A stretch of DNA of 60,390 nucleotides, taken from IMG/VR virus record IMGVR_UViG_3300025009_000111, positions 1-60,390 of that record. One strand, given 5' to 3'. This DNA is from a virus. Shown in pieces: positions 11,256-60,390 of this stretch (position 1 is the first letter of the stretch; each line of letters starts with the position of its first letter). Made by a program: the position numbers and the translations under genes. The notes beneath the pieces are model-generated. The model made no database searches, was not told where the DNA came from, and was given only the letters and a program-made list of their open reading frames with translations.

Positions 11256-12164
11256 TTACTTACTATTGACGCATTCGAAACAAGACATTGTCAAACCGGC
11301 ACGTCCAAGGTCATAGTAGTTCTTTTCGAATTGACACATGATATCATATGCCTTAGACATCCCGGAGTTAATCAAAACAGCATTCATATACCCAAGGACG
11401 CATCTTCGGACGCCTTCGGGTTCTTCCTCGATTCCTTTTAGAATCACCGATACTGTTTTCCAGTCTTTCCCCTTGAGTAGCGCTTGGCAAAGTCCATTGA
11501 CTTTCGATTCCGAGGTGGCAAGCTGGGTTGCCATCTCAGCCATTTGTTCAGGTGGTAATCCACGTATTTTGTCGAGGATGACAAGAGCAGTTCGGGCGGA
11601 TCCCATACAATCCCTGCTGATGATCTTCAGTACGTCCAGTGGGGGTTTGATCCCCTCGGCTTTGCACACGGGAATCAGCAATCCTTTGCCAATTTCTTCA
11701 GGAGACAGAAGTTGGGTTTCGAAAGACATGCAGCGAGTACGGATTGCCTTGAGGAGTTTATCTGGGTGGGTGGTGCAAAGAACGAAGTAAACGTGCTTTG
11801 GTGTGTCTTCCAGAGCCTTGAGCATTGCGCTCATGGCATCGTTTGACAGTTGATGGACTTCATCCATGACCCACATTCGGACTTTACCTTGGGAAGGGGA
11901 ATACACCATCTGCTTCCGGATTTCCCGAACTGTATCAATGCCGCGGAAGTCTCCCGAATCAATCTCGATATAGTCATTTTCTTCGCATCCGATTTGATTC
12001 TTGATGATTCTGGCGAGTGTTGTTTTCCCGGTGCCCGACGGTCCCGAGAACAAAATTGCATGCGGGGTATTGGTAAGATCCATCTTTCGAAGGGAATTGA
12101 TAATCCCCGTATTTCCGACCATTCCTTCCAGAGTATCCGGTCTGTATTTCTTGTACAGTTCCAT
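11256..12164 (-). CDS. Clamp loader AAA+ ATPase (RFC small/DnaX-like)
   Basis: A 302-residue AAA+ protein. Walker A 'GPSGTGKT' is at 41-48, Walker B 'MDEVHQ' lies near residue 100, sensor 1 'CTTH' follows, and 'IRTRCMSFE' carries the arginine-finger SRC-like motif of clamp loaders. C-terminal helices complete the collar. With the DnaN-like clamp (16290-17324) it should load the clamp for the phage polymerase. The first 42 codons and the region upstream of this gene are duplicated exactly at 12820-13002, with a foreign-looking segment between the copies, so the present 5' end is one of two copies. Confidence 0.9.
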   Translation of the reverse strand: MELYKKYRPDTLEGMVGNTGIINSLRKMDLTNTPHAILFSGPSGTGKTTLARIIKNQIGCEENDYIEIDSGDFRGIDTVREIRKQMVYSPSQGKVRMWVMDEVHQLSNDAMSAMLKALEDTPKHVYFVLCTTHPDKLLKAIRTRCMSFETQLLSPEEIGKGLLIPVCKAEGIKPPLDVLKIISRDCMGSARTALVILDKIRGLPPEQMAEMATQLATSESKVNGLCQALLKGKDWKTVSVILKGIEEEPEGVRRCVLGYMNAVLINSGMSKAYDIMCQFEKNYYDLGRAGLTMSCFECVNSK

Positions 12165-12221
12165 GTTTGTCTTACTCCCTAACTGTTAAGATTGGGTAAA
12201 CGGTGCCCCGAATCGAACGGG
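12039..12221. repeat. 183-bp perfect direct repeat, copy 1
   Basis: Identical over 183 bases to 12820-13002. It contains the first 42 codons of the clamp-loader gene, its ribosome site and about 57 bases upstream. It is the right-hand border (in transcription order) of the 598-bp inserted segment. Perfect identity implies a recent event or ongoing gene conversion. Confidence 0.95.
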
Positions 12222-12436
12222 TCGCCGCATTGCTTGCATGTGGTGGTCTCGACATCTTTCATCGGCTTTGGCGGGGCAATGCCCAGGCGCTTGGCCCGGG
12301 CGGCCTTGAGACAGTCCTCGTTGCAGTAGGACTGGCTGGGGCCGGTGGGGAGGAATGAACCTCCGCATTCCTTACATACGCGCGGAGTGGTCTTGACTTT
12401 GTCCATGACCTTCGAAAGTGCCGGGGGGTACGCCAT
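12179..12436 (-). CDS. Small zinc-ribbon protein carried by the insertion
   Basis: An 85-residue protein starting at an ATG with aaaggagat 6-8 bases upstream. It has Cys-x2-Cys ... Cys-x3-Cys ('CKECG', 'YCNEDC') and a second Cys-x2-Cys ('CKQCG'), so one complete and one half zinc site, joined by a basic linker. Zinc knuckles of this kind occur in HNH-type nucleases and small phage DNA-binding proteins; no catalytic residues are present. Its last 15 or so codons lie inside the 183-bp repeat, so the C-terminus was created at the insertion junction. Function unknown. Confidence 0.7.
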   Translation of the reverse strand: MAYPPALSKVMDKVKTTPRVCKECGGSFLPTGPSQSYCNEDCLKAARAKRLGIAPPKPMKDVETTTCKQCGDPFDSGHRLPNLNS

Positions 12437-12819
12437 GGGGGGATCTCCTTTGGTTGGGGTGGATGGTTCCCGTCTCTCCGGGATGTCACGCCTGTCCCCG
12501 ACGGCGTTCTCGGGTGCCAGCCCTTCAGCGGGGCGAGAGTCAAGCTCCGGTCTCTCCCGGATGTCACGCTCTTTCACGTTGTCATGCAGACGTGTTAACT
12601 TCGCGGTCTGCAAGCGAGTCTGGTCTCTGCCAGACGTCACGCCTGATTCTGTTCCCGTCCGATGTGTCATTTCAGGCGGGGGGTTCCGTGGCGTTCCGGG
12701 CGTTGCCGGGTGTGGTAGCCCTTCTATGGACATGATGGGGGATGACACCACCTCGACCCAGGTGGTCTGGGAATTGATCGGGACAACGTGGGTCCATCCG
12801 CCGGGATCGCGAACCGAGG
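12222..12819 (-). mobile_element. 598-bp inserted segment between direct repeats in clamp-loader locus
   Basis: The segment between the two 183-bp repeats has no counterpart elsewhere in the operon and is richer in G+C than the neighbours. It holds three tandem hairpin units and the zinc-ribbon gene, read leftward. Deleting the segment plus one repeat would restore an ordinary clamp-loader gene directly behind the upstream gene. It carries no transposase. A small element or a recombination-born tandem insertion is inferred. Confidence 0.6.
12470..12644 (-). repeat. Three tandem hairpin units with compensatory stems
   Basis: Units begin near 12470, 12547 and 12620, about 75 bases apart. On the plus strand each has a 4-bp stem around the loop TCTCTC or TCTCTG, then GATGTCACGC or GACGTCACGC. 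The stems are CCCG/CGGG, CCGG/CCGG and CTGG/CCAG: both sides change together while the loop and flank stay constant. Second hairpins follow (CCCGA/TCGGG in unit 1; GCAGAC/GTCTGC at about 12593-12618 in unit 2). Covariation indicates a structure conserved as RNA or as extruded DNA. Confidence 0.75.
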
Positions 12820-12945
12820 CGGTCCCGAGAACAAAATTGCATGCGGGGTATTGGTAAGATCCATCTTTCGAAGGGAATTGATAATCCCCGTATTTCCGAC
12901 CATTCCTTCCAGAGTATCCGGTCTGTATTTCTTGTACAGTTCCAT
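12724..12945 (-). pseudogene. Truncated duplicate of clamp-loader 5' end
   Basis: Starting from the second copy of the clamp-loader ATG at 12945, the frame is identical to the clamp loader for 42 codons, up to just before the Walker A loop. It then runs into inserted sequence for 31 unrelated codons and stops at 12724. The fragment lacks any ATPase motif. It keeps a full ribosome site, so it may be translated as a 73-residue peptide, but as a clamp loader it is broken. Confidence 0.85.
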
Positions 12946-13002
12946 GTTTGTCTTACTCCCTAACTGTTAAGATTGGGTAAACGGTGCCCCGAATCGAACG
13001 GG
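12820..13002. repeat. 183-bp perfect direct repeat, copy 2
   Basis: Identical to 12039-12221, offset by 781 bases. This copy is joined to the natural upstream sequence of the operon and is probably the original 5' end of the clamp-loader gene. Inside it lies a short inverted repeat, CCCCG-TTCGATT-CGGGG on the minus strand (12985-13001), which resembles a tRNA T-arm. Confidence 0.95.
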
Positions 13003-13018
13003 GTTGCTGGCATTGCAT

Positions 13019-13201
13019 CTAGTAGTCCGTATGCGACATCTGAGTATAGTGGTTAGCTTCACTCATTTTCATTACCGTTGTACTTCCGGTACAGTAGGCA
13101 TTTCCATCCAGCGGCACTTGATTCAATGAACCTATTCCGGTTAAAGGGCGGAACAGAACCACCGATTGAACAAGCATAGCCCATTGCCTTGCCCGTCCCA
13201 T
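13019..13201 (-). CDS. Possible 60-residue small protein
   Basis: An open frame downstream of the zinc-binding acidic protein gene. Its C-terminal half ('CTGSTTVMKMSEANHYTQMSHTDY' region) has balanced, protein-like composition. The ribosome site for the ATG at 13201 is weak; a GTG three codons earlier lies behind gaggag at a longish distance. It fills an otherwise gene-free stretch of 218 bases before the repeat. Function unknown; it may be a remnant. Confidence 0.35.
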   Translation of the reverse strand: MGRARQWAMLVQSVVLFRPLTGIGSLNQVPLDGNAYCTGSTTVMKMSEANHYTQMSHTDY

Positions 13202-13220: not shown

Positions 13221-13622
13221 TTACTCCTCAAATCCAAAATCGTCGTCCTGGGTTTCTTCATCACTCAAATCATCACCAGTTTCAACTACTGGGATACCAT
13301 CTTCATTCTCAACATCTTCTTCATCCGTCCCTCCCCCATCATCCCGAAGTGACATTGCATACCACTCTTCAAGTTGTTCAATCTTTGGTCGGTGCCCCAT
13401 TCTGTAGGGCCAGATTGAACAGGAGGAACAAACACAGTATCGGACTTCCTTTTTCTGCTGGCTAGAACAGTCCATGCACTTTTCCCGAATGGCTCGAATG
13501 GGTGTGCAGAGTTTGATTCCATCCTTTGCCATCTGTTCCCGAACTTCGACAACTGTTGGACCAGTACGTTTGGTTGGAATCGGTGGAGGTCTTTGTACTT
13601 TCTTTGTTGACTTGATTACCAT
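13221..13622 (-). CDS. Zinc-binding phage protein with acidic tail
   Basis: A 133-residue protein. The core 'KCMDCSSQQKKEVRYC' followed by 'CSSC' and 'YRMGHRP' gives four or five cysteines in the arrangement of a small zinc domain widespread in phages (I-R-x-x-C-x-x-C ... EV-x-x-C ... C ... PYRMG). Its role is not known, although it often lies near replication genes. The C-terminal third is strongly acidic ('DEEDVENED', 'SDEETQDDDFGFEE'). A CCGTATAATA promoter motif stands about 40 bases upstream. Confidence 0.8.
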   Translation of the reverse strand: MVIKSTKKVQRPPPIPTKRTGPTVVEVREQMAKDGIKLCTPIRAIREKCMDCSSQQKKEVRYCVCSSCSIWPYRMGHRPKIEQLEEWYAMSLRDDGGGTDEEDVENEDGIPVVETGDDLSDEETQDDDFGFEE

Positions 13623-13660: not shown

Positions 13661-13670
13661 TATTATACGG
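13661..13670 (-). promoter_or_regulatory. CCGTATAATA promoter motif
   Basis: Minus-strand CCGTATAATA overlapping the stop codon of the polymerase gene and 39 bases before the next gene's ATG. It belongs to a set of nearly identical motifs placed before several operons of this genome on both strands; no TTGACA-like box is seen 17 bases upstream. Confidence 0.65.
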
Positions 13671-15111
13671 TTGGAATTGCGATTTCCTTTTTCTCATACC
13701 AACAACCTCCGGGAGGAGTGACTTCAGCTTCGATCTTGATCGGTACATTGATCCATTTCCAAGCTTCCATCAATTCCGTGGTCATGATATGGTTGCACAA
13801 TTTCAAGTATTCGTCAAGTTCTCCAATCGGAACGAGTGCCAGTTTCGAATCATGTATCTGACCAACTAGATGCGATTGCATCTTTGGTCGTTTCTGGAGT
13901 TCTTCATCCATCCGGTAGAATGATCTCAATAGACAGTGAAAAGCATCACCTTGGATTGGATAGTTGATAACGTCATTCCGTTTAAAGATACCTGTGTGCT
14001 TGAATCCGGTCTTGCTACAAAAGAACCCCTGCCTTTGATATGCTTCAAACCACTTCTTTTTCCAGTCGGCATATACAGGGAACCGCTTGTGCCAAAAGTG
14101 GTCTTCAACTTTCGAGATGTGATGAAGGAAAGTACCAGGCTGGGGTTTTCCAAATCTACTGTTCTCATCCTTTTTCAGTGATCCCAGTTCCCTGATTTTC
14201 AACTTTCGTTTCAGATGTGTCGTAAATGGGGTGCCGTCCCCTAAGGTGAATTTACCTTCCAGCATCGCATTCCAAAGACTAGGTGCGATCTTTGCCCAGT
14301 ATGAGCCATAAAAGGCTGGGAATACAAACTTGTTTTTCGAAGCGTGTCGTACAGCCTTTGGTTTGGGGAGGCAGGCGTTGTATTCTTCCTTCGACAGTCC
14401 ATAGATTTCCAATGCCATGTCCCCGTGCATGTCCAGGTCATCAATCAGGTACTTGAGCATTGTTGGATCGCAGTGGTAACAAGCCGCAATACGAACCTCG
14501 ATGGCAGCATAGTCAGCTTCGACAAACACCCACCCGGGAGGAGCACGAAAAGCCATACGAATGATTTTAGCAATCTCTGGATCACGGTTTGGGAAGTTTT
14601 GAAAGTTAGGTCCACTCGAACTCGAACGGTATGTCGTTACACCGTGCAGATGAAACCAGCAGTGCAAGTATCCGTCCACGGTTTCCCGCAGGATTTGCTC
14701 CAGTACATCAATCGCTTTCCACCATCTACGATATTCGAGCACTGACTTTGCAAGAGGAAGTTTGTGTTTAGACAAAGCCGCTTTATCTGCTGTACCTGCT
14801 TGGGATTCAGATTCGAAGTCCTCTTCATTCCCTTCCAGATCGGATTCGTTAATTTTCAAATGGTCGAATAAAACTTCTCTGACTTGGTTGGTGTTTCCAA
14901 GTGAAGCATCTTTTCCATACTTTTTTATCCACCAATCCCCACCCTCCTGTTTCCAAGCATTCGATTCAATCCATTTGATTTTAGTTCCAATCTCGATCCT
15001 TTGTTTTTGACAATATTCAACATTAACTGAAATCCCCCTCCACGTTGCTCGGGATAGTGCGATACTCCCCTTGTGGAGTAAATGATATGCTTCGGGTTTA
15101 AATGGGATCAT
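13663..15111 (-). CDS. Family A DNA polymerase, polymerase domain
   Basis: A 482-residue protein with the palm, fingers and thumb of a Pol I-type polymerase and no exonuclease domain. Motif A is 'DYAAIEVRI'. The O-helix (motif B) has Arg...Lys...Phe...Tyr-Gly ('RHASKNKFVFPAFYG'). Motif C reads 'QIHDSKLAL', so the usual His-Asp-Glu is His-Asp-Ser. The 3'-5' exonuclease is supplied by the upstream gene, which it overlaps by ATGA (15108-15111). The pair therefore makes a two-subunit replicative polymerase, presumably tethered by the phage clamp. Confidence 0.92.
   Translation of the reverse strand: MIPFKPEAYHLLHKGSIALSRATWRGISVNVEYCQKQRIEIGTKIKWIESNAWKQEGGDWWIKKYGKDASLGNTNQVREVLFDHLKINESDLEGNEEDFESESQAGTADKAALSKHKLPLAKSVLEYRRWWKAIDVLEQILRETVDGYLHCWFHLHGVTTYRSSSSGPNFQNFPNRDPEIAKIIRMAFRAPPGWVFVEADYAAIEVRIAACYHCDPTMLKYLIDDLDMHGDMALEIYGLSKEEYNACLPKPKAVRHASKNKFVFPAFYGSYWAKIAPSLWNAMLEGKFTLGDGTPFTTHLKRKLKIRELGSLKKDENSRFGKPQPGTFLHHISKVEDHFWHKRFPVYADWKKKWFEAYQRQGFFCSKTGFKHTGIFKRNDVINYPIQGDAFHCLLRSFYRMDEELQKRPKMQSHLVGQIHDSKLALVPIGELDEYLKLCNHIMTTELMEAWKWINVPIKIEAEVTPPGGCWYEKKEIAIPTV

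Positions 15112-58817: not shown

Positions 58818-60390
<1,573 letters not shown>

Follow-up and report, generated by a model that had tools for sequence, protein, structure and literature searches.

The clamp-loader gene of this phage begins twice, on either side of a 598-bp segment of foreign DNA. The repeat that contains the two beginnings is real; the segment between its copies, which we call X, is probably a fragment from a phage carrying a truncated HNH-type endonuclease gene, and the duplication is probably an accident of recombination. X also contains three copies of a hairpin unit whose stem pairing and loop are conserved across phages that have no common neighbouring gene. The duplication has little to teach beyond phage mosaicism, and it is the hairpin units that matter more.

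A perfect direct repeat at the start of the clamp-loader gene

The DNA analysed, referred to as the window, is the whole of IMG/VR virus record IMGVR_UViG_3300025009_000111 (60,390 bases). A repeat search of the window found that positions 12039-12221 and 12820-13002 are identical over 183 nt (100% identity, spacing 781) with 598 bp between them, as had been described earlier. A perfect repeat of 183 bases cannot be chance, and it is the sole long perfect repeat in the window apart from the collagen-like repeat genes. On the minus strand the order of features is DNA polymerase A, an ORF of 133 aa, repeat copy 2, X, repeat copy 1 and the full clamp loader:

13663-15111, minus strand, DNA polymerase A gene
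13221-13622, minus strand, ORF of 133 aa
12820-13002, minus strand, repeat copy 2, with the broken clamp-loader start (42 codons) on its native upstream sequence
12820-12945, minus strand, broken copy of the clamp-loader start, 42 codons
12222-12819, minus strand, insert X, 598 bp, about 62% G+C
12179-12436, minus strand, putative truncated HNH-type endonuclease gene, N-terminal treble-clef part only, 85 aa, ATG at 12436 (PHROG 1271 and alignment)
12039-12221, minus strand, repeat copy 1, adjoining the intact clamp loader, 100% identity
11256-12164, minus strand, intact clamp-loader gene, 302 aa (PHROG 5846, E=3.1e-55; relatives found)

Repeat copy 1 holds the first 42 codons of the clamp loader together with the ribosome-binding site and 57 bp upstream, and it also encodes the last 13 codons and the stop codon of the truncated endonuclease ORF. 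Across the 42 codons and the upstream region the two copies do not differ, even at third positions, so either the event happened recently or something keeps them the same. In the distal copy the reading frame (ORF 12724-12945, minus strand) leaves the clamp loader within the P-loop, where it switches to foreign sequence (SGP/SGTGKTT becoming SGP/PRFAIP); its earlier description as a broken start of 42 codons is therefore correct.

A perfect T-arm-like hairpin, CCCCG-TTCGATT-CGGGG, lies at the 13002 border, and there is a pairing AACGGT/ACCGTT upstream of the clamp loader (both in window 12960-13085). A tRNA attachment site at this border was considered but is doubtful; ARAGORN found no tRNA, and the fold is no more stable than those of shuffled sequences (z=-1.0). 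At the contig ends, positions 1-56 and 60333-60388 have the same 56-base sequence, in both cases within collagen-like repeat genes. This may reflect a circular genome or a collapsed repeat.

The insert is foreign DNA

The G+C content of X is about 62%, compared with 45-51% on both flanks, and the composition steps at both ends. The window has three matches to the hairpin model, all within X. The model had no match in the clamp-loader loci of 80 relatives or in the whole records of 20 relatives, a search run there without a positive control, while it matched 27 of 28 other records, most of them chosen as carriers of the motif. From the G+C step and the absence of the hairpins from the relatives searched we conclude that X is foreign DNA.

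DNA searches with X gave no match among 72,556 plasmids and only three short weak matches (E 0.2-0.6) among 50,697 phage records. There was no second copy of X in any collection searched, and no protein match was found for the 5′ part of X. A single genome is known with the structure repeat-X-repeat. No donor was found either, so neither junction can be compared with its source. In agreement with the preliminary description, X contains no transposase, recombinase or integrase (ORFs; Pfam and PHROG scans). The repeat search found no terminal inverted repeats at either end of X, and a duplication of 183 bp is unlike the short target duplication of a transposon or insertion sequence.

The insert probably contains the front part of an HNH-type endonuclease gene

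The insert had been said to hold a zinc-ribbon gene and hairpins. Both are present, but the gene resembles a truncated HNH endonuclease; this likeness was missed, as was the wide spread of the hairpins among phages. PHROG 1271 (HNH endonuclease) matches residues 15-78 of the ORF in X with E=1.8e-8. Pfam matches of the ORF are all below cut-offs, so the assignment rests on PHROGs and alignment. The start codon is most likely the ATG at 12436, behind AAAGGAGATCCCCCC, giving a protein of 85 aa and not 190. The longer reading was rejected as the hairpins sit in different frames, and the part upstream of ATG 12436 is probably noncoding. The ORF has two CxxC knuckles and ends at 12179; its last 13 residues (PFDSGHRLPNLNS) and the stop codon are encoded by the repeat, as the preliminary description had noted for the zinc ribbon.

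On alignment with LUZ24 gp35, Jabbawokkie gp30 and GAL1 gp80 the positions of CxxC, Phe, Cys and CxxCG are in common. The N-terminal zinc-binding or DNA-binding part of the HNH family is thus recognised in X, from PHROG 1271 and from the Cys and Phe positions. The three aligned proteins continue into Endonuclease VII or HNH domains. The protein of X enters the repeat after CKQCGD and stops 13 residues on, before any catalytic residue, and PF13392 (HNH_3) has no match anywhere in the record. Judged from its sequence, the ORF is most likely a truncated endonuclease rather than a complete zinc-ribbon protein, and its short product could still be made. Other protein matches to the zinc ribbon are only partial, and one of them (L083) is a NinG protein. 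The annotation of LUZ24 places gp35 between parts II and III of the DNA polymerase.

The hairpin stems covary

X has three 24-base hairpins (12468-12491, 12546-12569 and 12619-12642), where 0.06 would be expected by chance. They belong to the following units, the match of unit 3 being expected since this copy belonged to the alignment of the model:

12617-12643, minus strand, hairpin unit 1, TCTGG-CAGAGA-CCAGA
12544-12570, minus strand, hairpin unit 2, TCCGG-GAGAGA-CCGGA
12503-12507, minus strand, 5′ strand of the P1 stem of unit 3, ACGCC, whose partner is GGCGT at 12488-12492
12466-12492, minus strand, hairpin unit 3, TCCCG-GAGAGA-CGGGA, the last unit before the ORF (45.2 bits, E=5.4e-8)

The consensus of the hairpin is GGYGTGACN, a 5-bp stem and a GAGAGA loop, and the copies in X read GCGTGAC(A/G), 5-bp stem, (G/C)AGAGA, stem. 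Since the frame of the overlapping ORF differs from one copy to the next, selection acts on DNA or RNA, and not on protein.

A pattern specifying foot and loop was found in 63 stretches of viral contigs as against 17 in the species-genome collection (257 billion bases). The inner stem pairs, which this pattern leaves free, are complementary in 62 of 65 viral matches, compared with 9 of 18 genome matches. A freer pattern gave at least 120 viral stretches. Among the matches listed for the free-stem pattern at new loci, 28 of 46 distinct stems are fully paired, whereas shuffled partners gave a mean of 2.2 and a maximum of 7. Pairing is 100% in 25 aligned copies with 38 double changes, these copies having been selected for pairing. 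There is a second stem, P1, in which an upstream ACGCC or ACACC pairs with GGCGT or GGTGT. A unit has its own P1 partner within 70 nt in 30 of 59 cases (16.8 when partners were swapped, 5.1 when the sequence was shuffled), and GRACGC or GACACC is found upstream of 87 of 124 units (13 expected). The hairpin stems covary, in positions not imposed by the search.

We note that at four loci (L088:2042, L095, L130 and L147) the GAGAGA units are accompanied by a variant of the hairpin whose loop is GAAAGA and whose P1 stem differs. The GTGACAC register of the hairpin resembles the SP6 promoter. A reading of the hairpins as promoters of a phage RNA polymerase was set aside as unlikely, since the stem covaries and a promoter would have no need of it.

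The units adjoin phage genes of many kinds

In 22 viral contigs searched whole there is one hairpin cluster per record; the exceptions are G014, which is clear, and G012, which has a weak second match. At loci of low G+C, 16 of 65 units lie inside an open frame of at least 150 codons, compared with 45 at random positions. A ribosome-binding site with a start codon and frame follows within 75 nt downstream of 34 of 124 units, while 12.6 are found at random and 3 in antisense. None of 16 matches in annotated phages overlaps a gene, and two overlap only an annotated promoter feature. Isolated phages with a unit include Vibrio phage 10N.286.54.E5_PE002, Gordonia phage LittleMunchkin and Aggregatibacter phage S1249. 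One genome match is a CRISPR spacer in an array of Castellaniella caeni (L160:1374-1459), and suggests that phages with the hairpin unit infect this bacterium.

Genes adjoining the units encode capsid, tail tube, terminase small subunit, single-strand DNA-binding protein and N4-type virion RNA polymerase, among others. A link with any one gene was rejected as the neighbours are nearly all different; an HNH gene nearby was seen only at L108. Units adjoin N4-type polymerase genes at L088, L095, L143 and L147, the call being made by PHROG 2206 for two scanned neighbours and presumed for the very large ORFs of L095 and L147. Units lie directly before tRNA genes at L116, L142 (seen by eye), L168 (a weaker second hairpin) and L170, and upstream of a Mu-gp36-like gene at three loci (L176, L187 and L216, identified by eye), where Rfam gave no match. 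Beside the units of L130 (4300-4900) there is by eye a hammerhead-like sequence (CTGATGAG ... CGAAAC), unreported by Rfam at the gathering threshold. Within the SU10-like capsid family (L090-L148) related phages differ in how many units, and of which kind, stand between the capsid gene and the gene after it, so that units are gained, lost or swapped as whole modules. In the same family a second repeated phrase, GCGACACCTGCC, starts many units.

The position of the units suggests that they act as leader RNAs. They are mostly noncoding and often lie a few tens of bases before a start codon; together with the conservation and the CRISPR spacer this is a sign of an RNA function in phage gene expression that is common and apparently unstudied. 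The units may constitute a new widespread phage RNA family, comprising P1, GACA and a 5-bp hairpin with a GAGAGA or GAAAGA loop, which would be present as one cluster of one to five units per genome before very different genes and be exchanged as modules between phages. We regard the case for such a family as evenly balanced. If it is true, X is one such RNA module caught just after transfer.

Origin of the duplication

Between polA and the clamp-loader gene relatives have uninterrupted sites or other homing genes. The gaps in 69 relatives range from 2 to 2,458 nt, with assorted extra genes, and homing-endonuclease-type genes are found in those of L012 (HNH), L051 (GIY-YIG with NUMOD) and L068 (NUMOD3). 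Gene gain at this site is therefore common, with homing endonuclease genes among those gained. The nearest clamp loaders are 40-48% identical to that of the window. Among the loci of relatives a direct repeat of at least 20 nt near the clamp-loader start is found only in L078, where it is about 36 nt long and lies upstream of the gene. Only this phage has the long duplication.

We favour, with rather better than even confidence, entry of the fragment X by illegitimate recombination through two junctions that overlap by 183 bp. X would be a piece of a G+C-rich phage genome, containing three structured leader-RNA units and the front part of an HNH-type endonuclease gene. At the first junction codon 42 of the clamp loader would have been joined to X, and at the second codon 72 of the endonuclease to a position 57 bp before the clamp loader begins. 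Had two phage genome copies taken part, either as sister genomes or in a concatemer, with junction points overlapping by 183 bp, a direct repeat would have resulted. We infer the phage donor, the participation of two genome copies and the order of events. The opposite arrangement would lose the clamp-loader start and be lethal, so that selection alone could account for the duplicated outcome; the duplication would be seen because the reverse overlap destroys the clamp loader, and no special strategy of X is needed. Both border genes are cut in mid-domain, the clamp loader in the P-loop and the endonuclease in the second CxxCGxxF knuckle, which is what junctions at random points would produce. 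GCAATGC is common to the two sequences upstream of the repeat, and an endonuclease that continued naturally as CGxxF would have CCCGTTC in common with the target; joining at microhomology would leave such traces. The dispersal of the hairpin motif among unrelated phages, yet its absence from the relatives searched, also supports illegitimate recombination, as do the step in composition at both ends of X, the lack of a transposase, recombinase or inverted ends, and the frequent gain of genes in the related gaps. Against it, a direct repeat of 183 bp should vanish fast through homologous recombination. For it to have persisted, the event must be recent, X must be selected for, or the assembly must be in error.

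The main rival is failed homing, given that there is endonuclease sequence in X and that genes of this kind are drawn to the site. A free-standing HNH gene would have entered the gap between polA and the clamp loader by cutting and copying, and repair of one end with homology and of the other by end joining would have left the 183-bp repeat and lost the catalytic half. The resemblance of the ORF to the N-terminal part of phage HNH endonucleases, including LUZ24 gp35 between split DNA polymerase parts, is in keeping with this, as are the homing-type genes of three relatives in the same gap. However, the catalytic domain is missing, HNH_3 having no match in the record, there is no known cut site, and homing normally copies a gene precisely and without a long duplication. 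We therefore consider this origin unlikely, if still deserving of attention.

That the structure is an assembly chimera, in which another molecule sharing the 183 bp, or a small circle of repeat and X, was merged into the contig, is less probable again. The repeat is perfect, X is foreign in composition and the record is an IMG/VR virus contig, but an assembler needs both borders in reads, and it is unlikely that the same 183 bp was falsely joined twice, independently. Homologous recombination of the phage with a 781-bp circle, made of X and a captured 183-bp piece of phage DNA, would yield repeat-X-repeat exactly and in one step, and the repeat starts in T-arm-like sequence as in tRNA-targeted integrations. 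Yet X has no replication or integration gene, ARAGORN found no tRNA and the circle must first arise, so we give this origin little credence.

The preliminary description had proposed a mobile element that keeps itself harmless by copying the 5′ end of the gene it targets. Its account of 598 bp inserted at the clamp-loader start, with the gene kept intact by duplication, is supported, and the insert has a readable gene; but with no mobility gene or recombinase, no inverted or otherwise defined ends, no second copy found and its own endonuclease gene cut short, X is most improbable as a strategic element. The simple alternative that it offered, a one-off recombination, is the better fit.

Comparison with known systems

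None of the Rfam 15 covariance models, including those for GOLLD, ROOL, tRNA and hammerhead, overlaps a unit in the window or at many loci. The hairpin family is unlisted in Rfam, which is not proof that it is undescribed. A survey of 2017 reportedly presented 224 candidate RNAs, among them the phage motif Mu-gpT-DE, which is of interest here for the three loci with a unit upstream of a Mu-gp36-like gene.

X resembles the ‘moron’-like segments of phage mosaicism by illegitimate recombination in its foreign composition, its in-gene junctions and the preservation of the essential gene. It differs from them in the long direct repeat, and in carrying RNA hairpin units and a truncated gene in place of a complete cargo gene. 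The ORF of X has the treble-clef arrangement (CxxC, F, YC, DC, then CxxCG) and the replication-gene neighbourhood of free-standing HNH genes of the LUZ24 gp35 type; unlike these it is without the catalytic HNH domain, and a 183-bp duplication is atypical of homing.

The units are short hairpins with a conserved foot and a variable stem, like repeats of the REP/BIME type; they occur as one cluster per genome, whereas REP/BIME repeats have many dispersed copies. Like GOLLD and ROOL (PMC12286853) they are phage-borne, noncoding and structured; in contrast, they are about 30-90 nt long, and the loci that contain them are without an Rfam match. The put antiterminator of HK022 is a two-stem RNA of about 70 nt in two early operons (PMC9378689). 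It is a phage-encoded two-helix RNA that acts from the transcript (PMC9378689), and the units described here are likewise two-helix and phage-encoded. By description they are set apart from put in being shorter, in forming one cluster of one to five per genome, and in lying before many kinds of gene.
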